Made by a program: the position numbers and the translations under genes. From positions 1-54,186 of IMG/VR virus record IMGVR_UViG_3300022744_000034: a stretch of DNA of 54,186 bases. One strand, given 5' to 3'. Origin of the DNA: a virus. Positions 10,935 to 53,174 of the stretch are shown here, piece by piece. The notes under the pieces were generated by a model. It saw nothing but the letters and a program-made list of their open reading frames with translations, made no database searches and was not told where the DNA came from. Within the stretch, counting starts at the first letter, position 1; each line of letters opens with the position of its first letter.

Positions 10935-12629
10935 TCAACTTACGCGGTTTTCTTTCACCTTAAAAGTCGACAACATTGGTAGTCTGACAGTTGACGAACG
11001 ACCTGCGTGGATCATATGGGCAGCTACCCATGCGTACAGTGTTGCATGCCAGGCGTGGTCGACCCCCTTTTGCGACTTTTGCCACTTCACGGATAGTTCG
11101 TGATCACGGTCAAAGGTCTTTATACGCTTCATGTCGCAGGCGTGCGCGATCCATGTCTCATCCGTATTATCCTTACGCTTCTTTACGAACCCCGACTTAA
11201 CATTCTCCATAAGAACGTCAAACGCACGATCTCGGTTGATGTTTACCATTCGCAGGTCGAGTTTCGCCTTGTCAATATTTGCCTCCTGGTCCCGAACAGT
11301 AAACGCTTCAACGCTCTTGTTCTTTGTGTAGACTGCCGCGAACAAATTCGCCGACTCAAGCTGCATTCGGTACACCGATTCGGAGTAGGGCATCGAATCG
11401 CAGACAGCCATTCTCACGTTGTACTGCCGTGCCAGTTCAGACCGTCGTTCCACTAGGCTCCTAAGTGGAATCGCCTCAACATGCACGACAATGATGGTTT
11501 GGTCAGGCATGACGGCCGCGATAACACAGTACGATTCAACGCCAAGGTCCAACCCCATAACATAGCTGAAACCCTTGGACGGCATCTCGTCGATGAGGCA
11601 TCGCCGCATATCCTCGCGCGTAAGCGTCGAGTCTTGTGACTGTGCGGTCAGACCGAGCGTGTTGTTCATCCAGTCTTCACGCAACGAGTATCTTGTGGCG
11701 GCCTCAATCATGTAGCCGGGCGTGTTGTAGCGAGGCACATCAATCGGGCTGATGTGCCAGCCGTGCCTGCGGCCTTTGTACCCAGTATTCTCTGGAACCC
11801 ACTCCCTGTACTCAGGCCCTAGATCCGGCTGTTGTCCGCAACTTGGGCATGCGACATATGCGTCAACATACGAGGGGTGTTTCTGCAGCAAGGAAGGGGT
11901 GATGTTGTAAAAGTCGAAGCCGGGAGCGTTAGGCACACGAACGTCATTGAAGAAATCGAACCAGTGCCACGACCCGCAGTGGGAACACTTGTACATCCGA
12001 TAATGCTTTAGAGAGTCCTTGAAATCTTCGTCAATAGCAAAATCCGGCAGTGTTGGCGTACTCAGACTAATCCTGTGCCGGTGCTCGCTGTGCGTAAGGC
12101 GGGACGTGTAGGCCGATAGAATGTCCTGATCGCAAAAACATGACTCGTCCATGTAAAGCGCTGAGGCCGGGATAGACACCGCTTGCGCCCCCGTAACAGC
12201 CCCTCGCGCGTAAATAAACGAGCTTCCAAAACGTTTCACCTCAGAAGAATTCAGTGCCGGGTCAACAGCATTGCGCATGGCGGGGCTGTCGTTGATGATC
12301 GGGTCAGCCCGCGTCTTCATGAACGTGGTGGCGAATTTGCTTGAGGGCAGGACGTAGATTACCGTATAGCCCTTCATGATGTTAACGCGAGCAAGTGCCC
12401 ATCGGATGGAAAGTTCCGATGCTCCGACCTGCGACGGTTTGATCAGTGCGTGCTCAGGCGCCTTGGACAGCAACGGGCCGAGTTGCCACTCGTGGTCCTT
12501 GAATGACCATGGCCTCCCATTAACAAAGGTATTCTTCTCCATCCAACTCGGTAAAAGGCCAAGGTTATTGTTATACGTCGCCGAGACCTTCAGCCGGTTG
12601 ATGTGTGTACTCCACAGTTCATTGCCCAT
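10935..12629 (-). CDS. terL: Terminase large subunit (GpA type)
   Basis: 564 residues. Walker A-like KPSQVGASE at about 64-72 (the GpA pattern K-x-SQ-x-G-x-SE), Walker B SALYMDES near 157-162, zinc pairs CSHCG (215-219) and CPSCG (261-265), nuclease-type GLDLGVESYCVI in the second half, and HAWHATLYAWVA near the end, all hallmarks of the lambda gpA family. It cuts concatemeric DNA and drives packaging through the portal. The start ATG 12629 has AAGAAGG before it and a promoter-like site 43 bases upstream. The stop overlaps a repeat shared with the end of the HNH gene. Confidence 0.92.
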   Translation of the reverse strand: MGNELWSTHINRLKVSATYNNNLGLLPSWMEKNTFVNGRPWSFKDHEWQLGPLLSKAPEHALIKPSQVGASELSIRWALARVNIMKGYTVIYVLPSSKFATTFMKTRADPIINDSPAMRNAVDPALNSSEVKRFGSSFIYARGAVTGAQAVSIPASALYMDESCFCDQDILSAYTSRLTHSEHRHRISLSTPTLPDFAIDEDFKDSLKHYRMYKCSHCGSWHWFDFFNDVRVPNAPGFDFYNITPSLLQKHPSYVDAYVACPSCGQQPDLGPEYREWVPENTGYKGRRHGWHISPIDVPRYNTPGYMIEAATRYSLREDWMNNTLGLTAQSQDSTLTREDMRRCLIDEMPSKGFSYVMGLDLGVESYCVIAAVMPDQTIIVVHVEAIPLRSLVERRSELARQYNVRMAVCDSMPYSESVYRMQLESANLFAAVYTKNKSVEAFTVRDQEANIDKAKLDLRMVNINRDRAFDVLMENVKSGFVKKRKDNTDETWIAHACDMKRIKTFDRDHELSVKWQKSQKGVDHAWHATLYAWVAAHMIHAGRSSTVRLPMLSTFKVKENRVS

Positions 12630-15193: not shown

Positions 15194-15871
15194 ATGATCG
15201 CCACCGCCACCGCCACCGCCACCGCCACCGCCACCGCCGTCATGAGCGTGGCGGGCGTGGGCCTGCCCGCTTCCCTCCCGCGATGGGAGGCTGCCGCGCT
15301 AATCCGTTCCCTCATTGGGAACGAGAGCGCCATCATTGCCCTTGCATCGAACAAGGCGAAGGCTGAAGCCGCGCTAGCGGTTTCACTTGGGATCGCGCTG
15401 CAAAGCGCGATTTTCGGAGACCAATCCGCTCTCAAGCGGATTGAAGGTGCTGCGCGTGCCCATGCCGAAAAGCATGGGTTGTTGGCGAAAGCCGACAAGG
15501 CTGGCAATCGTGCCCTTAAGGGCACGCTCGGGAAAATGATCCAGTCCTTCAAAGGCGCTGCCACGTTTGGCAGCGCATACAGGGACTTGCAATCCCCACA
15601 CTTCGACTTGCAGGGGATGCTCGCATCCCCTCTTTGCCCGGCTTTGCCGGCGCCGAAGGCCGAAGCCACGACCGAAGCCACGACCGAAGCCACGACCGAA
15701 GCCACGACCGAAGCCACGACCGAAGCTCCGGAGCGCAGCGCACGGGAGCAGCAGCAGCGTGATCGTGCCGCAAAGGCACTGCGCAGCATGCGCGCCACCA
15801 TCCGGGCCATGAAAGCGGCGCAGGATGCGCCGGCCCTTCCGGCCAAGCGCCGCAGCAAAAAGGTGGCCTAG
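15194..15871 (+). CDS. Ala-rich low-complexity protein, unknown
   Basis: 225 residues from ATG 15194 with CTGGAG upstream. It opens with a Thr-Ala repeat coded by six GCCACC hexamers, has a helical middle (SALKRIEGAARAHAEKHG, then GKMIQSFKGAATFGSAYRDL), five EATT repeats (15662-15721) and a basic tail (RRSKKVA). The tail and helices suggest nucleic acid binding. Long reverse-strand frames also cross this stretch, but promoter and ribosome site favour the plus strand. It lies just before the large structured non-coding region; a partnership with that RNA is conceivable but untested. Confidence 0.55.
   Translation: MIATATATATATATAVMSVAGVGLPASLPRWEAAALIRSLIGNESAIIALASNKAKAEAALAVSLGIALQSAIFGDQSALKRIEGAARAHAEKHGLLAKADKAGNRALKGTLGKMIQSFKGAATFGSAYRDLQSPHFDLQGMLASPLCPALPAPKAEATTEATTEATTEATTEATTEAPERSAREQQQRDRAAKALRSMRATIRAMKAAQDAPALPAKRRSKKVA
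15200..15235 (+). repeat. Six tandem GCCACC hexamers
   Basis: Perfect in-frame hexamer repeat coding Ala-Thr at the N-terminus of the Ala-rich protein. Such tracts slip easily, but changes stay in frame. Confidence 0.9.
15662..15721 (+). repeat. Five tandem GAAGCCACGACC units
   Basis: Perfect 12-base repeats coding EATT five times, separating the helical middle from the basic tail of the Ala-rich protein; probably a flexible linker. Confidence 0.9.
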
Positions 15872-17285: not shown

Positions 17286-17776
17286 GAGGCGCTGAGCGCG
17301 AGCAGGCGCGATGAATTTTCACACGCCTAACAGCAAACCTCGATAGCAAACACCTATCGACAAGGAAGCTCGGGCACAAGGCATGGCCCATCGACCGCAA
17401 GGCAAGGCCATGCCAAGTGCATCCAGCCGCATGCCGAATCAATAAAAGTGTGACAGATTGCACAACTTTTAAGCAAACAGGCAAAAGTCCTTTCGGCAAG
17501 CCCTGCAAGCCTGCAAGCCAGTAACTGCAAGGCTTTGAGCCTCTTTCTCTATATAAGAAACTGTCACACTTATATATAAAAAGATTTGGTTGATTCTTTA
17601 GAGAGTAAATACAGAAAAAAATTAGAGGGCAACAAGCAAACGACTTGCCGAAACCCCCACTCCCCGCATCCTCGAAAAAAGTGTGACAGTTTCGAGGCTA
17701 ACCCCTTGATTTATAAGGGACCGACCTATCTGTGACAACCTGCACAATTTTTGTGCAGCCTTTATTGGAGAAGACC
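17286..17776 (+). other. Repeat-rich non-coding region, possible origin or operator cluster
   Basis: 491 bases without a gene. AAAGTGTGACAG occurs at 17445-17456 and 17678-17689 and, inverted, CTGTCACACTT at 17561-17571; a weaker CTGTGACAA lies near 17730. The 17678 copy sits exactly between the arms of an 8-bp inverted repeat (CCTCGAAA 17670-17677, TTTCGAGG 17690-17697). AT-rich DNA fills about 17540-17635. CTGCAAGC/CTGCAAGG is repeated three times at 17503-17532. Iterons beside an AT-rich unwinding zone suggest a replication origin; repressor operators are the alternative. Confidence 0.5.
17740..17758 (+). terminator. Hairpin before the 17777 gene
   Basis: CTGCACAA-TTT-TTGTGCAG followed by CCTTTATTGGAG and the ATG at 17777. 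Same hairpin, T-rich, ribosome-site layout as at 15161, 16843, 23310 and 27570. Confidence 0.45.
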
Positions 17777-17950
17777 ATGAGCAAGTACCAGGGCTTGACA
17801 AGCATCTTGAAAAGTGCCTTGACCATTCAGCAGGACCTAGGCACGCCCGCTGCCGCAACCTTCCTCCGCGACAACAAGGTCAGCATGTGCATCGCCTTGT
17901 ACATGCTTGCAAGGAAGCCGAGCAAAGCCGAAAGCAAAGGGAAAAGGTGA
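17777..17950 (+). CDS. Small early protein, unknown
   Basis: 57 residues from ATG 17777 (TTGGAGA upstream): helical middle (ILKSALTIQQDLGTPAAATF) and a basic tail (RKPSKAESKGKR). First gene after the repeat region, so possibly an early regulator; no family recognised. Confidence 0.5.
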   Translation: MSKYQGLTSILKSALTIQQDLGTPAAATFLRDNKVSMCIALYMLARKPSKAESKGKR

Positions 17951-17955
17951 CTCCC

Positions 17956-18180
17956 ATGCTCAGAACCTACATCCGCCCGCACCTTGAAGAAGGCGCGCTC
18001 CTGACTCGGTACGGGCACGATACCGACTCCCTATCAAAGGCAAAGGCCCGCATCGAGCGCCTGAGCCGTTCAACGACCCTGGACGAGGCCGAGATACGCG
18101 CCGTCATGAAAAACGGCTCTGAGCGGCTCCTGGCGGTACTGAGCAACGGTCTAGTCATCACCATAGGGCCGGAACAATGA
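17956..18180 (+). CDS. Small early protein, unknown
   Basis: 74 residues from ATG 17956 with AAGGTGA before it; GTG 17947 in the same frame is possible. Contains LSKAKARIERLSRSTTLDEAEI and ends LVITIGPEQ. The stop overlaps the start of the PEP-CTERM-like gene. Confidence 0.5.
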   Translation: MLRTYIRPHLEEGALLTRYGHDTDSLSKAKARIERLSRSTTLDEAEIRAVMKNGSERLLAVLSNGLVITIGPEQ

Positions 18181-18503
18181 AATACCTGCCACCCGGAACA
18201 CTGACCAAAGCCCGAAGAAGGGCACGACTTGAAGGTGCCCTTGCAGCAACCTTGGCGATCGCCCTGCTAGGGGTCGTGCTCGTGGCCGCGACGCCAAGAG
18301 AGTTCTACACGTCCGCCCAAGCAAGCCCGACCCCGAGACCCCAAGAACCCTACAGGCACGAGCGCCACGCACTCCCACCTTGCACGGACATGCATGCAAA
18401 GGATTGCATGCAAGACCCAATCCCTATCCCCGAGCCCGGCACAGCAAGCCTCATAGGCGCGGCACTTGCCGGTGCCCTCTATACAAGTAGGAGGACAAAA
18501 TGA
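18177..18503 (+). CDS. PEP-CTERM-like exported membrane protein
   Basis: 108 residues. Basic N-terminus (KARRRARLEG), a hydrophobic segment at about 20-39 (ALAATLAIALLGVVLVAAT) acting as signal or anchor, a Pro/His/Cys-containing middle (PPCTDMHAKDCM), then IPEPGTASLIGAALAGALY followed by TSRRTK. The end has the three parts of a PEP-CTERM sorting signal: PEP, a transmembrane stretch and a basic cluster. In bacteria an exosortase cuts such proteins during export to the outer surface. In a phage early region this is rare; it hints at an exosortase-bearing host. The start overlaps the upstream stop (ATGA). Confidence 0.6.
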   Translation: MKYLPPGTLTKARRRARLEGALAATLAIALLGVVLVAATPREFYTSAQASPTPRPQEPYRHERHALPPCTDMHAKDCMQDPIPIPEPGTASLIGAALAGALYTSRRTK

Positions 18504-18811
18504 GTACCTTAAGCAGACTACAAGCCCATTTGGCTGCACCAGAAATCAAGCCGTTGGAGCAGGGTCGCGAATACAAAAGCCTTGCCCCGCACGTGAAGTG
18601 TGCAGACGGCAGCACCATGAGCGTTCAGGCCAGCGAATATCACTACTGCAACCCACGTGACAATTACGGTCCGTACCTGCACGTGGAAGTGTGGAATTGC
18701 GGCATCGTAGATGCGTGGGCGGAGTTTGTAGGCGACGAGGACCCCTATGCTTTCGTCCCAATTGCACTTGTGGCGGCCGAAATTGACCGTCACGGCGGCT
18801 TCGCAAACTGA
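18500..18811 (+). CDS. Early protein, unknown
   Basis: 103 residues. Contains VKCADGSTMSVQASEYHYCNPRDN and YLHVEVWNCG, read as a beta-rich fold; this resembles small phage proteins of unknown role that begin with a Cys-containing DG-x-x-MSVQ pattern. Its ATG overlaps the preceding stop. Confidence 0.55.
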   Translation: MSTLSRLQAHLAAPEIKPLEQGREYKSLAPHVKCADGSTMSVQASEYHYCNPRDNYGPYLHVEVWNCGIVDAWAEFVGDEDPYAFVPIALVAAEIDRHGGFAN

Positions 18812-19093: not shown

Positions 19094-19168
19094 AGCACGC
19101 CGCTCTGACGTATCACTTGACTAACTATTCGTTACCTTGTGTGTGGACAACGTCAGGGCGGCACCTAT

Positions 19169-19234
19169 CAAGAACCCAAGGCAAGAACCCAAGGCAAGAA
19201 CCCAAAGCAGGAACCAAAGCAGGAACCAAAGCAG
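19169..19234 (+). repeat. Five tandem 12-13-base repeats in a leader
   Basis: Units CAAGAACCCAAGG twice, a CAAAG variant, then AGGAACCAAAGC twice, lying 20-90 bases before the start of the 670-residue gene. Possibly a binding site or slipped duplication. Confidence 0.75.
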
Positions 19235-19256
19235 TATCTTTACAGGAGAAAAGACC

Positions 19257-21269
19257 GTGGCAAGACAATTCAACGAAGGCGACCGTGTCGTCGTCACCCG
19301 CAAAATCAACCCCGGCGAGGTCAACCCGGAAACGGGCGAGCGGTGTACCTGCGACTGGCTTGACGAGATGGACGACCTTGTCGGCCAAGAGCTAAAAGTG
19401 TGTTTTCACGGGCAGATGTCGAACCTTGGCGTCTGCATCGGGGCGCCTTCTGGCAAGACGTACTTTTTCCCGGCGTGGCTCGTCCAACACGTTGAAGATG
19501 AAGATGACAGACTTGAACAGGAAACCAAGTTGAGTCCGGAGCAGGCGCACGAGGAAAACTACGGCCGACTGTTCAACACCGTCTCCAACATCTGGGACTG
19601 GCGCGCCACGAACGCTTATTTCAACGACAGAAACATGCTTCTCAACCTTGTTCGTGCGAAGATTCAGCAAGTTGCGCGTGAAGCAAACTATCTGGCCTGG
19701 AAGCGCAGGCGAGCGGAAAAGCGCGAAGCCCTGAAGCTCCAGCTCGAAGCGCGCCCCGACCTTTACAGAAAGCGGAACGCTAAGAAGTGGTCAGGGCCGA
19801 AACAGCGCCTAGCAGGCGAAAAGGTCAAGCGCGTCGTCAAAGAACTGACTGCGTGGGCCGAGGGACGCAATCCGCAGGCACAGATCGGCCTTTTGTATGA
19901 GATCTACCGCACCCTCCCGCGTCAGGTGACGCTTAAATTGCCGCAGAAGGTAATCGAAGCGGGTGAAAGGTACTCCATGCAAAGGGGCGCGGCCTACAAG
20001 CCCGCCTGGGTCGCGCCCCTGCCTAACGGCGTCGAGGTGTTCAACAACACCCTCGTGCGTGTCTCCGACGACGACCTGACCAAGGTCTGTTATATCCAGA
20101 ACCTGACCAAGTTGATGCACGGCGACGACGGCCTGTGGACGCGCATCAAGCCGGGCCGCTTCCTCGCCAAGTTTCATCCTGAGTTGAGCGAGGACGAGAT
20201 CCGCAAATGGGCTGAGAAGCACGAGGCGGAGCACGCTCCGGTCCAGTTGAAGTTCATCGAGAACACGGACCCGGACGGGTGGGAGCGCGTGTACGAATCC
20301 GCGAGCGGATTCTCGTCCTGCATGCAATACGATCTCCCCAAATGTCGCTATCTGCACTACCTTGCTCACGGCGAGGACCACCCTGTGCGCAGTTACGCCT
20401 ATCCCGGCAACGGCCTGCGCCTAGCCTACATCGGCGAGGATGACAAGGTCTATGCCCGCACCATCGTCCGCGACGACGACGGGAAAAAAGGCTACATCCG
20501 CATCTTCGGCGACAGCCGCATCCACCTCGCCTTGGAGAAGGCGGGCTATAGCAATGAAGTTGACCTTCAAGGGGTCAAGATCGCGCACCGTGAAGCGAGT
20601 TGGGATAGAGGCTTGCTGCTTGTCCCGTATCTGGATTCGATCGGCAGCGTCAGCGACGAGGGCGACCACCTGGTGATCAGCCGATACGGCGAGATCAGTG
20701 CTACGGAATCGAGTGGGGTTGTGTCGCGCTATTTATGCGATCGATGCAACAGCGCTGTCGACGAGGATGAGACGCACTACTCGGAATACGAGAACACGTC
20801 GTACTGCATCCACTGCAAGGGCGACTTCGTGACCGCTGTCGTACATGTTGGCCGGTACGGCGAAGAGCGTGACGCTGTGCTCAGAGACAACGCGATCGAG
20901 GTCGGCGGCACGTGGTATGCGAACGACGAAGATTTGTTGGAAAAGGCGGGGCTCGTCAAGTGCGTGGAGTGTGACGAGTGGGAGGACGAGGATAACGTGA
21001 TAGAAACGTCGCGTGGATTCATCTGCGGCTGCACCGACCTAGTTGAACTCGATGAAGAGGACGACAACGGAAACACGTGGGCGCACCCGGGCGATGCCGT
21101 GAAGGCGCTGGGCCTGCCCGACCTGACCGAAGTCTGGCTGCACGAGGACAAGGAGTTCGACGACACCGGCCTGTCCGACTGCGAGGGCTATGTCCTGCCG
21201 CAAAGCGAAGCCCACCTTGCAATGGTTGCCTCGACGCAGCCGGCCGAACTCAACCTTGAAGCAGCATGA
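19257..21269 (+). CDS. Large early protein with zinc motifs, unknown
   Basis: 670 residues from GTG 19257 (ACAGGAGAAAAGACC upstream); the frame is open further up through the tandem repeats but without a ribosome site. An N-terminal SH3-like stretch (EGDRVVVTRKINPGEV), a long basic coiled or helical part (LAWKRRRAEKREALKLQLEA), a mixed central domain (YESASGFSSCMQYDLPK, then YAYPGNGLRLAYIGEDDKVY), and two C-terminal zinc-type sites (YLCDRCN with YCIHC; VKCVECDEW with FICGC). It ends acidic. The family is not recognised; similar large proteins stand in early regions of other phages. It is the largest early gene before the replication block. Confidence 0.7.
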   Translation: MARQFNEGDRVVVTRKINPGEVNPETGERCTCDWLDEMDDLVGQELKVCFHGQMSNLGVCIGAPSGKTYFFPAWLVQHVEDEDDRLEQETKLSPEQAHEENYGRLFNTVSNIWDWRATNAYFNDRNMLLNLVRAKIQQVAREANYLAWKRRRAEKREALKLQLEARPDLYRKRNAKKWSGPKQRLAGEKVKRVVKELTAWAEGRNPQAQIGLLYEIYRTLPRQVTLKLPQKVIEAGERYSMQRGAAYKPAWVAPLPNGVEVFNNTLVRVSDDDLTKVCYIQNLTKLMHGDDGLWTRIKPGRFLAKFHPELSEDEIRKWAEKHEAEHAPVQLKFIENTDPDGWERVYESASGFSSCMQYDLPKCRYLHYLAHGEDHPVRSYAYPGNGLRLAYIGEDDKVYARTIVRDDDGKKGYIRIFGDSRIHLALEKAGYSNEVDLQGVKIAHREASWDRGLLLVPYLDSIGSVSDEGDHLVISRYGEISATESSGVVSRYLCDRCNSAVDEDETHYSEYENTSYCIHCKGDFVTAVVHVGRYGEERDAVLRDNAIEVGGTWYANDEDLLEKAGLVKCVECDEWEDEDNVIETSRGFICGCTDLVELDEEDDNGNTWAHPGDAVKALGLPDLTEVWLHEDKEFDDTGLSDCEGYVLPQSEAHLAMVASTQPAELNLEAA

Positions 21270-27476: not shown

Positions 27477-27553
27477 GTGGGTGTAGCTCAGTTGGTAGAG
27501 CGGGACGTTTATTCTAGATAGTCTGCGCGCTGGTTCGAGTCCAGCCACCCACT
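27477..27553 (+). tRNA. Atypical tRNA, possibly amber suppressor (CUA)
   Basis: Acceptor arms GTGGGTG (27477-27483) and CACCCAC (27546-27552) pair fully; D arm GCTC-AGTTGGTA-GAGC and T arm GCTGG-TTCGAGT-CCAGC are perfect; variable loop TGCGC. The anticodon arm is irregular: taking GTTTA/TAGTC as stem gives loop TTCTAGA with U33, anticodon CTA and purine 37, but five bases (GGGAC) instead of one separate it from the D arm and one pair is T-T. Alternatively GGAC/GTCT closes a 14-base loop. CCA is not encoded. The anticodon is therefore uncertain. Confidence 0.65.
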
Positions 27554-41723: not shown

Positions 41724-41951
41724 ATGGCAGATGAGATCGACCGCGCCAACCACCTTGCTGAGTTGGCGACACAGGACTCGGTCGCGCACTACCGGCGCCT
41801 CGCGGCGCCGGAACAGGACCCGGACAACCTCGACCCTTATTGCGCAGACTGTGGCGACGAGATCGAGGATGCACGATTACTTATGTGCAAGATGCGCTGC
41901 TTCAGTTGTCAGAGCGCGAAAGAAATTCGGGAAAAGCAACACGCACGATAG
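41724..41951 (+). CDS. DksA/TraR-type zinc finger protein
   Basis: 75 residues from ATG 41724. A helical front (ADEIDRANHLAELATQDSVA), then YCADCGDEIEDAR and CFSCQ, the C4 zinc finger of TraR/DksA, with a short helix. Phage relatives bind RNA polymerase in its secondary channel to shift promoter use. Length typical of TraR. Lies just before the polymerase gene. Confidence 0.8.
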   Translation: MADEIDRANHLAELATQDSVAHYRRLAAPEQDPDNLDPYCADCGDEIEDARLLMCKMRCFSCQSAKEIREKQHAR

Positions 41952-41962
41952 CGAGGTTAGGG

Positions 41963-44900
41963 ATGAAACGTTTGATCGTGGACATGTCGTCGGTCATCAA
42001 GCGGTGTTTGTTCGCAGGCGTCGACGCAGAAAACGGGAAGAAGGTCGAGTTCAACGGGAAGGAGGTTCAGGTCAACAGCGGGGTCTATGGTTACGACAAT
42101 GCGATCAACAGCATCGTCGCCTGCCTTGAGACGCTGAACATGGTGCCGGCCGACATGATTCTCGTAGTCGAGTCGGGCCAGTCGAAGTCTCGTCGGCAGC
42201 AGATCTACAAGGGCTACAAGGAGGCACGCGAAGAGCGTCCGCCTGAACTGAATGCGGCCTACGCGGAAGCGCTCGACCTCGTGGTCACGGCGATGCGCAA
42301 CCTCGGCGCCACGGTCGTCACCCAGCCGCACATCGAGGCGGACGACGTGATCGCCTACCTTGCCCGGAACCTGAAGGGGGCGAAGGTCATCTTCTCAGAG
42401 GATGGCGACCTAGCCACGCTGCTTGGCCCGGACGTGTCGCTGTACCGGCAAGGGCAACTCGTTACCGAGAACCCTTACGGCCCGTTCGAGCCGAAGTTCA
42501 TTCCGCTCATGAAGTCGCTGGTTGGCGATGGCAACGAGTACAAGGGCGCGGCCGGGTTCGGGCCGAAGGCGTGGCTTGACCTCCTGGTCAACTACGGCAA
42601 CTACCTCGGCGCACTCGAAACGCTGATCCGGGATCGGCGGCTCGAAGAACTGGAGGACGACGCCAAGGACTTCAAGCCGTTCCGCAAGGTGATCGATGGC
42701 GCGGCCCACGTCTACGAGTCGTATCAGTGTGCACTGCTGCATTCGGAGTGGGTGAATCAGCCCGGAAAGCCGTGGCAGGTTCAAGGTCCGATTCGCGGCG
42801 CTGAAGTGCAGGACTACCGGCTTCGCAGTTTCGGCGCCACAACATCGGTGGTCACGCCGAACTTCACGACGCTGGCCGCGATCACGGCACCGGAAGACGA
42901 CACGAATGTCAAGCGTCGATTCGTCGCGTTTGACTCCGAAATCATTGGCGACGAGCGGCCTGTGTTCCTGACCTGCGCGCAGATGATCGACACGGGCGAG
43001 CAGTTCTCGTTCTGGGCGCACAAGCCGGGCGACATGGCGGCTCTCGCGAAGATGCTGTCGCGCAAGGACCTGACGTGGGTTAGTTTCAACGGTATCAACT
43101 TCGATGCGCCGATCAACGCGCTGGCCGTGTTCGAGGCTTCGGACACGGAAGGGCAGACGCAAGAGCGCGTGTGCGACATCAAGGCGATGGCGCAGGCGAT
43201 CATCGTCGAGAACGTCAAGCCGTGGGAGTTGGGCGAGCGATTCACCTTTCGGGAACTCAGTTTCGATCACATCGACCTCGCTGAGCCGGCGCCAGGTGTT
43301 CGCATCAGCCTGAAAGCCTACGCAGCACGGCTGGCCTACAAGACGATGGTCGACATGCCGTTTGCGCACGACCAGGATCTGACTGAAGACCAACTGCCCG
43401 ACCTTGAACGGTACTGCTTCAACGACCTTGGCGTGACGATCGAACTCTTCAACGCGCTGCGGCCCGAACTCGAACTGCGGGCAAAGATGGGTGCCGAGTA
43501 CGGGGTCGAGTTGCGGAGCAAGTCTGATGCGCAGGTTGCTGAAGCGGTGCTGCGCAGCGTGCTCGGCATCCGTGGTCGCGTTGAGCGCGAGATTCCGCGT
43601 CGCGTTCGCTACACACCGCCGTCGTTCATTCAGACGGATAGCGAGGTGATCCTCGATCTGATGGAAAAGTTGAGCGCGCATGAGTTCGTGGTCAACTACG
43701 CCAATGGATCACCCGAGGCGCCGTCGTTCCTGGATGAACCGATCGAGTTGGGTCACGGCACCTACAAGGTCGGGATCGGTGGCCTGCACAGCACGCATGA
43801 CAAGTCCGTGTTCAAGGAGGCGACGCAGTTCCGATCAATCAGCGACTTCGACGTAGCGTCTTATTACCCAAACATCATGATGAATGCGGGTATCCTGCCG
43901 ACGTTTGGCGGGGACGCCGACCTTGGCAAGAAGTTCATCGACACCTACCGCGACATTTACGAACGGCGTGTCGCTGCGAAGCGAAGCGGGGACAAGTCTG
44001 CGGCCAACACATTGAAGATTGTCCTGAACGGAACGTTCGGCAAGTTGGGCTCACCGTACAGTGCCTTTTACGACCCCGCGCTGATGCTCGGCGTTACGAT
44101 CACGGGCCAGTTGAACTTGATGTGCCTGATCCATGAACTGGAGAAGTTGCCGGGCGTGCTTGTCCTGTCGGCCAACACGGACGGCGTCATGGTTTCGTAT
44201 GGCAACGGTCAGCGTGACAACGTGCTGAAGGCGATCGCGGACAACGCCACGCGCACCGGCTTTGAGTACGAAGAGACGCCCTACGCAAAGGTCGCGGCGA
44301 AGGATTTGAACAACTACATCGCCATCACAGCCGAGAAGGACGCGGCAATCATCAAGCCTGGCGACGTTATCGAGTTGAGCAAGTCGAAGGGCGGTAAGGC
44401 GAAGCGCAAGGGGCTGTATGCGTCCAGCCGCAAGGAAGAGAACCCGCTCTTCCTGATGAAGAACCCGACGATGGAAGTGTGCAGCCGTATGGCGATCGAC
44501 TATCTCATCGACGGCACGCATCCTCGCGAGGCGATCACGAAGTACACGGAAATGCGCGACTTCGTGGCTGTGCGCAGTGTGAAGGGTGGGGGAATTCAGC
44601 CCGATGCAGCCGTTCCGGTCGATGACTGGGTCCTGGTCGTTGACAACGGCAGCGCCAAGAACCTGTGGATGAGGCAGAAGCACATCGACGAAGGGTTCAC
44701 ACCTGACGACAAGTGCGTGGCGATGCGCAAGTCCAAGCCGCATCCTGTCGAAGAGTACATCGGCGGCGAACCGTTTGGCCGACTGGCGCGATGGTACATG
44801 ACGACGGACAAGTTGCCGCCGATCGTCTACGCCAGCAACCGAAACAAGGTTCCGAAGACGGAAGGCGCGAAGATTTGTATGACGCTGCCTGACGAACTGC

Positions 44901-44998
44901 CGACCGACCTTGATCGTGAGTGGTACATCAACGAGACGCTGGAGATTCTGGCAACGCTCGGCGTTCAAGTCACGGAAGAAGTCGCCACAACCGAATAG
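41963..44998 (+). CDS. FEN 5' nuclease fused to family B DNA polymerase
   Basis: 1011 residues from ATG 41963 (TTAGGG upstream). Residues 1-260 form a FEN/5'-3' exonuclease: RLIVDMSSVIKRC, QSKSRRQQIYKGYKEAREER, HIEADDVIAYLA, IFSEDGDLATLL, and H3TH SLVGDGNEYKGAAGFGPKAW. Residues about 320-490 are a DEDD 3'-5' exonuclease (FDSE, SFNGINFDAP, YCFNDLG). The polymerase part has motif A DFDVASYYPNIM near 628, motif B NGTFGKLGS near 688 and motif C NTDGV near 738 (DTD reduced to NTDG). FEN domains are usually joined to family A enzymes; this joining is uncommon. Confidence 0.85.
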   Translation: MKRLIVDMSSVIKRCLFAGVDAENGKKVEFNGKEVQVNSGVYGYDNAINSIVACLETLNMVPADMILVVESGQSKSRRQQIYKGYKEAREERPPELNAAYAEALDLVVTAMRNLGATVVTQPHIEADDVIAYLARNLKGAKVIFSEDGDLATLLGPDVSLYRQGQLVTENPYGPFEPKFIPLMKSLVGDGNEYKGAAGFGPKAWLDLLVNYGNYLGALETLIRDRRLEELEDDAKDFKPFRKVIDGAAHVYESYQCALLHSEWVNQPGKPWQVQGPIRGAEVQDYRLRSFGATTSVVTPNFTTLAAITAPEDDTNVKRRFVAFDSEIIGDERPVFLTCAQMIDTGEQFSFWAHKPGDMAALAKMLSRKDLTWVSFNGINFDAPINALAVFEASDTEGQTQERVCDIKAMAQAIIVENVKPWELGERFTFRELSFDHIDLAEPAPGVRISLKAYAARLAYKTMVDMPFAHDQDLTEDQLPDLERYCFNDLGVTIELFNALRPELELRAKMGAEYGVELRSKSDAQVAEAVLRSVLGIRGRVEREIPRRVRYTPPSFIQTDSEVILDLMEKLSAHEFVVNYANGSPEAPSFLDEPIELGHGTYKVGIGGLHSTHDKSVFKEATQFRSISDFDVASYYPNIMMNAGILPTFGGDADLGKKFIDTYRDIYERRVAAKRSGDKSAANTLKIVLNGTFGKLGSPYSAFYDPALMLGVTITGQLNLMCLIHELEKLPGVLVLSANTDGVMVSYGNGQRDNVLKAIADNATRTGFEYEETPYAKVAAKDLNNYIAITAEKDAAIIKPGDVIELSKSKGGKAKRKGLYASSRKEENPLFLMKNPTMEVCSRMAIDYLIDGTHPREAITKYTEMRDFVAVRSVKGGGIQPDAAVPVDDWVLVVDNGSAKNLWMRQKHIDEGFTPDDKCVAMRKSKPHPVEEYIGGEPFGRLARWYMTTDKLPPIVYASNRNKVPKTEGAKICMTLPDELPTDLDREWYINETLEILATLGVQVTEEVATTE

Positions 44999-51852: not shown

Positions 51853-52148
51853 TGGAGACGATGAACCTTGAAGAGGCGGCGGCGTTCCTGAAGCTGCACC
51901 CGACCACGCTTTCCGAGATGGCGCGGCGCAAGGAAGTTCCATGTGCCAAGCCCGGAAAGCGTTACGTTTTCATCAAGGAAGACCTGGTCGGCTGGATCAG
52001 GTCTTCGTACAAACAGGAGTCAGTGCAATGCCCATCTTCCTCCGAGGCGGTGTCTATTGGATCGATATTCGTCACGGCAAAAAGCGTGTCCGCAAAACTA
52101 CAGGGACTTCGGTCGAAGCCGACGCGCAGCGGCTACACGATGAACTGA
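51849..52148 (+). CDS. xis: Excisionase-type HTH protein
   Basis: 99 residues. MNLEEAAAFLKLHPTTLSEM with ARRKEVPCAKPGKRYVFIKE and DLVGWI is the winged HTH of the AlpA/Xis/MerR-like helix_turn_helix_17 family. The C-terminal 40 residues overlap the start of int in another frame. Position next to the integrase supports an excision directionality role. Start at 51849 or the adjacent 51852. Confidence 0.75.
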   Translation: MMETMNLEEAAAFLKLHPTTLSEMARRKEVPCAKPGKRYVFIKEDLVGWIRSSYKQESVQCPSSSEAVSIGSIFVTAKSVSAKLQGLRSKPTRSGYTMN

Positions 52149-53044
52149 AGGCTGCGCTCTGGAAGAGTGAAAAACTCGGGGCGCCGCTACCCTACACGTT
52201 CGCCCAGGCCGTCGACAAGTGGGTCGATGAGCACAGCAGCAAGCGATCGATTGCGACGGACGCCTTCCGCCTCACCTGGCTGATTGACCATATCGGCGAT
52301 ACCAAACTCGTCGACATCGACGAGCGCGTCGTCGAGGGGCTGATCACGGCGAAGAAAAAGGAGAAGCGGCGGGGTGGGGCGGTCAGCAATGCTACCGTCA
52401 ATCGCCATCTTTCAGCCCTGTCCGTGGTGCTCAAGGCGGCGGTCAAGTGGAAGTGGCTGGAGCGCGTGCCCCCGATCCGGCGCCTCGGTGAGTCGCTACC
52501 CACGCCCCGGTTCTACAGCCGCGAGCAGGTCGTGGCGCTAGTCAGCCACCTGCCGATGCTTCACGCCAGCATCTTTTCCTTCGCCCTGGCTACCGGGCAA
52601 CGCGCAGCAAACGTCCTGTCCCTGAAGTGGGAGCAGGTCGACATCGAGAACGCCTGCTTCTGGATCATGGGCGAAGACTTCAAGAACAAGGCAGCCCACA
52701 ATGTGCCGCTGAACGCGGACGCGCTCGCTGTCCTGCACCTGATGGCGGGCGAGAACGATACCTACGTCTTCGCCGGGCGGGGCGGCAGGCCGCTCAAGCG
52801 CATCAGCGGCGAGGCGTGGTACGGGGCGATGGGCAAGGCCGGCATCCCGCATGGGCAACGCAAAGGTTTCACCTTCCACCACACTCGCCACACATGGGCG
52901 AGTTTTCACACTATGAACGGCACGCCGAAGGAGGCGTTGCTGGCGCTGGGCGGATGGAAGACTGCGGCGATGGTCGAGCGCTACGCCCACCTTGCCCCAG
53001 GGTTTGCAGCCCAGTACGCGAACAACACCAAGATCAACCGTTAA
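52028..53044 (+). CDS. int: Tyrosine recombinase integrase
   Basis: 338 residues from ATG 52028 (AGGAGTCAGTGCA). An arm-binding start (FLRGGVYWIDIRHGKKRVRK), core-binding SAM-like domain (60-150), then the catalytic domain: Arg192 in ATGQRAANVL, HxxR at 284-287, GGW 308-310, Tyr319 in VERYAHL. It joins attP to attB in tRNA-Leu. The gene ends 70 bases before the attP core. Overlaps xis by 121 bases. Confidence 0.93.
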   Translation: MPIFLRGGVYWIDIRHGKKRVRKTTGTSVEADAQRLHDELKAALWKSEKLGAPLPYTFAQAVDKWVDEHSSKRSIATDAFRLTWLIDHIGDTKLVDIDERVVEGLITAKKKEKRRGGAVSNATVNRHLSALSVVLKAAVKWKWLERVPPIRRLGESLPTPRFYSREQVVALVSHLPMLHASIFSFALATGQRAANVLSLKWEQVDIENACFWIMGEDFKNKAAHNVPLNADALAVLHLMAGENDTYVFAGRGGRPLKRISGEAWYGAMGKAGIPHGQRKGFTFHHTRHTWASFHTMNGTPKEALLALGGWKTAAMVERYAHLAPGFAAQYANNTKINR

Positions 53045-53093: not shown

Positions 53094-53113
53094 TAAGGGC
53101 TTTCAGCCTTATC

Positions 53114-53174
53114 GCACTGGATTTAGGTTCCAGCGCCGCAAGGCGTGAGAGTTCGAGTCTCTTTCCCCGCACCA
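53114..53174 (+). other. attP: 3' half of a tRNA-Leu(TAG)
   Basis: GCA, then anticodon arm CTGGA-TTTAGGT-TCCAG (53117-53133), variable arm CGCC-GCAA-GGCG, T arm GAGAG-TTCGAGT-CTCTT, acceptor TCCCCGC, A and CCA (to 53174). No 5' acceptor is present, so this is a tRNA fragment of the kind that restores a host tRNA gene on integration. The D-arm-like TTGGTAGACAC occurs at 53047-53057, separated by the int terminator. Confidence 0.85.

Follow-up and report, generated by a model that had tools for sequence, protein, structure and literature searches.

We found that a gene in the early, regulatory region of a temperate tailed phage encodes a small protein ending in a PEP-CTERM sorting signal. As a reading of the sequence alone had proposed, the signal belongs to a phage early-region protein, and it is conserved in a family of six. 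The protein is most likely an inner-membrane protein that the phage would hand to the exosortase A of its host, and from its sequence and relatives we put the probability that it is a real exosortase substrate by design at about 70%. The sorting signal is already known; the conserved phage family that carries it is new. It appears that certain phages draw on a pathway by which the host sorts envelope proteins, and which is not known to serve phages.

A small membrane protein in a coupled early operon

The window, by which we mean the whole 54,186-nt stretch analysed here, is the IMG/VR virus record IMGVR_UViG_3300022744_000034. Besides the phage genes listed in Table 1 it encodes an SbcC-like nuclease subunit and a ThyX-type thymidylate synthase, and the tyrosine integrase indicates that the phage is temperate. 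Queries with the terminase and a peptidase yielded no closely related phage. The gene proposed to carry the signal was found as an exact open reading frame, and its ATGA overlaps with both neighbours indicate a coupled operon. The upstream neighbour had no Pfam or NCBIfam match, and the downstream one had no match in these databases and no convincing match in PHROGs (best E 0.38). About 490 bp of non-coding sequence precede the operon start, and the three exact GTGTGACAG sites of the whole window, at 17448 (+), 17561 (-) and 17681 (+), cluster there, two of them within a perfectly inverted 15-nt match. By their arrangement they are likely operator or replication sites, and because this region holds all three, the operon looks early and regulated.

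Table 1. Positions of the features discussed, in window coordinates.
Feature	Position	Strand	Details
Large terminase	10935-12629	-	
Regulatory-looking non-coding region before the operon	17440..17760	.	Three exact GTGTGACAG copies; AT-rich stretch 17545-17600
First gene of operon	17777..17950	+	57 aa
Upstream gene, same operon	17956..18180	+	74 aa; ATGA overlap with 18177
Phage PEP-CTERM protein (predicted hairpin)	18177..18503	+	108 aa; ATG start; ATGA overlaps on both sides; TIGR02595 over cut-off; family of six
First hydrophobic segment (signal anchor or signal peptide)	18222..18290	+	After basic LPPGTLTKARRRAR; hydropathy; AlphaFold2 helix 8-38
Two-cysteine motif C-TDMHA-KDC in linker	18381..18407	+	P-C and K-D-C invariant in 6/6 members
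PEP-CTERM: IPEPGT, short TM segment (TASLIGAALAGALY), basic tail SRRTK	18426..18500	+	HMMs, shuffles; AlphaFold2 helix 87-107
AGGAGG	18489..18494	+	RR codons of tail and Shine-Dalgarno of gene at 18500
Downstream translationally coupled gene	18500..18811	+	103 aa; ATGA overlap; Shine-Dalgarno AGGAGG
DNA polymerase	41840-44998	+	
Tyrosine integrase	51941..53044	+	phrog_1, E 2e-53
attP core	53113..53174	+	62 nt identical to 3' part of Thauera tRNA-Leu(TAG); downstream of integrase

The encoded protein (MKYLPPGTLTKARRRARLEGALAATLAIALLGVVLVAATPREFYTSAQASPTPRPQEPYRHERHALPPCTDMHAKDCMQDPIPIPEPGTASLIGAALAGALYTSRRTK) consists of a basic N-terminus, a transmembrane (TM) segment, a 45-residue proline-rich linker, IPEPGT, a short second TM segment and RR, so that every element described earlier is present: the hydrophobic stretch near the N-terminus, IPEPGTASLIGAALAGALY and the tail with RR. 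Hydropathy places the first hydrophobic segment at about residues 16-43, with a long, conserved cytoplasmic N-terminus, and the linker cysteines are spaced C-x7-C (PPCTDMHAKDC). The AlphaFold2 model (mean pLDDT 69) has two helices joined by a disordered linker and contains no folded cargo domain. From this model we infer a membrane hairpin with the exosortase signal as its second helix. The length of the first segment and the conservation of the cytoplasmic N-terminus (LPPGTL) differ from a typical cleaved signal peptide and count against the substrate reading. This long, conserved segment may instead stay in place as an anchor, and in that case the protein would be unlike ordinary exosortase substrates.

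The PEP-CTERM signal and its conservation

The window protein passed the TIGR02595 model (18.1 bits, cut-off 16) and narrowly missed Pfam PF07589 (20.1 bits, cut-off 20.7), so that the profile search suggested by the sequence-only reading supported the signal in one model and fell just short in the other. The HMM matches lie at residues 83-107 of 108, the extreme C-terminus. For an independent test we made a PEP-CTERM HMM from tails in Rhodocyclaceae-family loci; it gave the real protein 24.2 and no more than 13.5 to any of 20,000 composition shuffles. For every family member, 0/20,000 shuffles reached the real score. The expected basic RR tail is present. However, RR alone is weak evidence, because its codons, AGGAGG, double as a perfect Shine-Dalgarno sequence 5 nt ahead of the ATG of the next gene, and we rejected it as proof by itself. 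An in silico variant with RR changed to SS still scored 17.5 with the independent HMM, above all shuffles. As a caution on background, one antisense frame in 16 related viral records exceeded the TIGR02595 cut-off (16.5 bits). This match, in a relative at a similar distance by DNA polymerase, had looked syntenic; it runs antisense to a tail-fibre-like gene and was set aside as chance. The PEP-CTERM motif of the window protein is not a chance match.

The next gene's AGGAGG, the slightly low Pfam score and the spurious antisense match would all suit an ordinary two-TM phage membrane protein (superinfection-exclusion, holin-like or regulatory) with no exosortase involved. In such a protein a PEPGT turn, an Ala/Gly-rich TM segment and a basic tail would merely resemble PEP-CTERM, and the tail would follow the positive-inside rule and be partly forced by the Shine-Dalgarno sequence. 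The shuffle results argue against this explanation, and so do the relatives of the protein.

Single-sequence searches of INPHARED, PLSDB and IMG/VR found no relatives of the window protein, and PHROGs gave no sequence match. Relatives emerged only through a degenerate PEPGT DNA pattern and profile searches. The pattern, written for (I/V)PEPGTxxLxG and run on IMG/VR, matched 53 contigs, and nearly all of these matches were true C-terminal PEP-CTERM ends. Three were full-length homologs: L043 (47% identity, 110 aa), L032 (37%) and L028 (28%). L032 is a Thauera prophage, since it is identical to a Thauera sp. 2A1 contig over 7.4 kb; the homolog of the 2A1 prophage has 115 aa. Searching 299 genomes of the bacterial family with a profile added a full-length member, L085 (E 2e-28). 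Furthermore, we stripped the PEP-CTERM from the profile (alignment A4) and searched 29 Thauera genomes, which recovered L032, L085 and a third copy, L123/L126 (E 5e-24), from another Thauera genome. This copy also ends in a PEP-CTERM, VPEPASAALVCLGLAALALTRKSRNPVTEYTS, and has ten more residues after VPEPASAALVCLGLAALALTRKSR. Because the profile lacked the motif, this last member is free of selection bias. L043 was also found again with a PEP-free query, one built partly from L043 itself. The six members are therefore the window protein, proteins of two other viral contigs and those of three Mu-like Thauera prophages.

In the six-member alignment the five homologs share 34-51% identity with the window protein, and PEP is invariant and always at the extreme C-terminus. 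Invariant residues elsewhere are mostly those of P-C...K-D-C and P-x-E-x-Y. Five of the six have a basic LPPGTL N-terminus; that of L028 is basic without LPPG. All six pass the TIGR02595 cut-off and all five homologs the PF07589 gathering score, which leaves the window protein the weakest of the six for Pfam, a point that counts against the substrate reading. Basic tails are kept where the codons do not form a Shine-Dalgarno sequence (KR in L043, RKSR in L123, RKRPR in L028), although the tail of L085 is poor in basic residues (FHRSQA), which again counts against it. An ordinary two-TM protein is difficult to reconcile with a PEP that is invariant, scores above the TIGR02595 cut-off in every member and recurs in one found motif-free.

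The three Thauera copies lie in Mu-like transposable prophages, between or near transposase/MuB and Gam/HU/gp16-like genes. L043 adjoins a DUF2303-type phage gene (phrog_210), and L028 has a terminase gene about 3 kb away on its contig. The family therefore crosses unrelated phage types, mainly in early regions. A holin or spanin is not supported: the window protein has no PHROG match and is placed among early genes, and the prophage homologs lie in Mu-like early regions rather than lysis cassettes. PEP-CTERM proteins are typical host genes, and two of the prophage-carrying Thauera genomes, 2A1 and G178, encode 7-8 each, which would suit a host gene caught at a prophage boundary, a moron of purely host origin with a role in the host matrix. 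This origin is highly improbable: in the window, L043 and the Mu-like prophages the gene sits inside translationally coupled phage early operons, and in the 299 family-level and 29 genus-level genomes full-length homologs were found solely in phage contexts.

Other matches of the searches fall outside the six. L060, on a Mu-like phage fragment, shares the plan of the six, including a KDC motif, and perhaps belongs to the family as a more distant relative; L081, L082 and L102 were out-of-frame or unrelated matches and were rejected. Dozens of further IMG/VR contigs carry PEP-CTERM genes (L022-L074), in recurrent clusters (for example L050/L058/L059/L061; L025/L030/L057/L069; L029/L033/L034/L042), and the gene of L061 stands beside terminase, portal and major head genes. 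From these contigs, PEP-CTERM morons would seem to be common among phages whose hosts have an exosortase. Three contigs (L027, L031 and L037, 150-aa frames) encode a second, unrelated small phage protein of the same plan, with a charged cytoplasmic N-terminus, a TM segment, a short linker and a VPEPGT-TM-basic tail.

The likely host genus and its exosortases

Of the 299 genomes from the bacterial family, seven have a tRNA-Leu(TAG) that matches the attP core at 62/62 or better; all seven are from Thauera, and among 399 genomes of the order the only perfect match was Thauera 2A1. Because perfect matches occur only in Thauera, this genus is the likely host of the window phage. One Thauera genome, G274, has two tRNA-Leu attB copies 8.6 kb apart (C1:2055173 and C1:2063805), as if an integrated element lay between them.

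An exosortase (PF09721) is encoded by 22 of the 29 Thauera genomes and by all three that carry the family, and those of Thauera 2A1 and G178 are XrtA (TIGR03109, 331-338 bits, cut-off 208) with a fused EpsI domain. Thauera sp. 2A1 thus carries both a homologous prophage and XrtA. With a base rate of 22/29 already, the co-occurrence in 3/3 genomes is statistically uninformative. Furthermore, an exosortase is missing from two of the seven Thauera genomes with a perfect attB, G330 and G087, the latter with the longest match of all, and it is therefore possible that the window phage's own host lacks the enzyme. The prediction that the host encodes an exosortase accordingly holds for the prophage carriers and most of the genus, and fails in these two candidates. 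The two exosortase-free genomes would fit the ordinary two-TM protein, whereas the exosortases of all three prophage hosts speak against it; taking this together with the family and shuffle results, we regard that explanation as quite unlikely.

Possible functions at the envelope

PEP-CTERM proteins are reportedly sorted by exosortase A (TIGR02595 and XrtA TIGR03109; Haft et al. 2006). Exosortase substrates are known as cellular proteins of the exopolysaccharide (EPS) matrix. The phage family resembles them in its C-terminal (I/V)PEPGT, short TM segment and basic tail, and in that the hosts of the prophage homologs encode an exosortase, of the XrtA-EpsI kind in the two that were typed. Unlike those substrates, the family is phage-encoded, only 108-139 aa long and outside any EPS locus; it has a long conserved cytoplasmic N-terminus and a first TM segment that is perhaps uncleaved, and in the AlphaFold2 model the window protein lacks a folded mature domain. 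Phage superinfection-exclusion proteins are small early or moron membrane proteins of temperate phages, a description that the window protein shares; we know of none with an exosortase signal. The C-terminal 24 residues also align with PepA, a flocculation PEP-CTERM protein (NF033554; PMC9850573), but the sorting signal alone matches (21.5 bits against a family cut-off of 80), with no similarity in cargo. In the titles and abstracts of the literature searched (PEP-CTERM or exosortase with phage), we found no description of a phage-encoded exosortase substrate, and the passages on PEP-CTERM in PMC12642866 concern Microcystis genes.

Judging from its anatomy, the protein would be inserted into the inner membrane by Sec, with the basic N-terminus in the cytoplasm, TM segment 1, a short periplasmic proline-rich linker with C-x6/7-C (KDC) and then the PEP-CTERM. 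Exosortase A would recognise this signal and cut or transfer the protein there, as the conserved motif and the XrtA of the prophage hosts suggest, and the C-terminus would be freed from the membrane. The product would be a short periplasmic tail on segment 1 or, should this segment be cleaved off, a small peptide that is set free. It might then alter the envelope or matrix of the infected or lysogenic cell to the benefit of the phage, in the simplest forms by keeping competing phages out or through competition with the PEP-CTERM matrix proteins of the host. We infer this downstream role, whether exclusion, matrix change or enzyme decoy, and hold superinfection exclusion or an envelope change only tentatively. 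PEP-CTERM proteins are required for floc formation in activated-sludge bacteria (PMC9850573; PMC9012009), so that the matrix, phage access and effects on the exosortase are natural hypotheses.

One form of this idea is a decoy, in which the phage protein would keep host XrtA busy at an early stage of infection or lysogeny. Host PEP-CTERM matrix proteins would then mature later and the floc or EPS cover would change, so that competitors are excluded or release is easier. The very short disordered linker, the missing cargo domain, the placement beside regulatory sites or Mu-type early genes, the conserved, uncleaved-looking anchor and the dependence of sludge flocs on such host proteins would all agree with it. 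On the other side, the linker's conserved Cys-Cys/KDC motif hints at a separate function for this part of the protein, and we consider a decoy unlikely. In a broader version, several phage lineages would have captured the exosortase A pathway with early mini PEP-CTERM substrates, perhaps decoys, that remodel the envelope or EPS against competing phages; this is conceivable, though we would not favour it over its negation.

If real, such a capture of the pathway would be the Gram-negative equivalent of phage use of the LPXTG/sortase route. The conserved family ties phage biology to the poorly understood exosortase pathway, and it offers a 108-aa substrate with which to study how exosortase acts on proteins. 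It also points to manipulation of the matrix machinery by phages of floc-forming sludge bacteria.

Elsewhere in the window, ARAGORN identified a tRNA at 27477-27553 (+) with anticodon CTA, labelled Pyl, a possible amber-suppressor tRNA of the phage. Sense recoding of TAG through it is unsupported: long genes stay open under the standard code, and TAG serves as stop in 3 of 37 genes checked. Repetitive coding sequence occurs at 15194-15871, where the protein of an open reading frame contains runs of simple sequence (ATATAT and ATTEATTE repeats) whose length could vary, and at 19150-19260, where a tandem-repeat-like QEPKARTQ/KQEPKQEP stretch lies upstream of an early protein of 670-710 aa.
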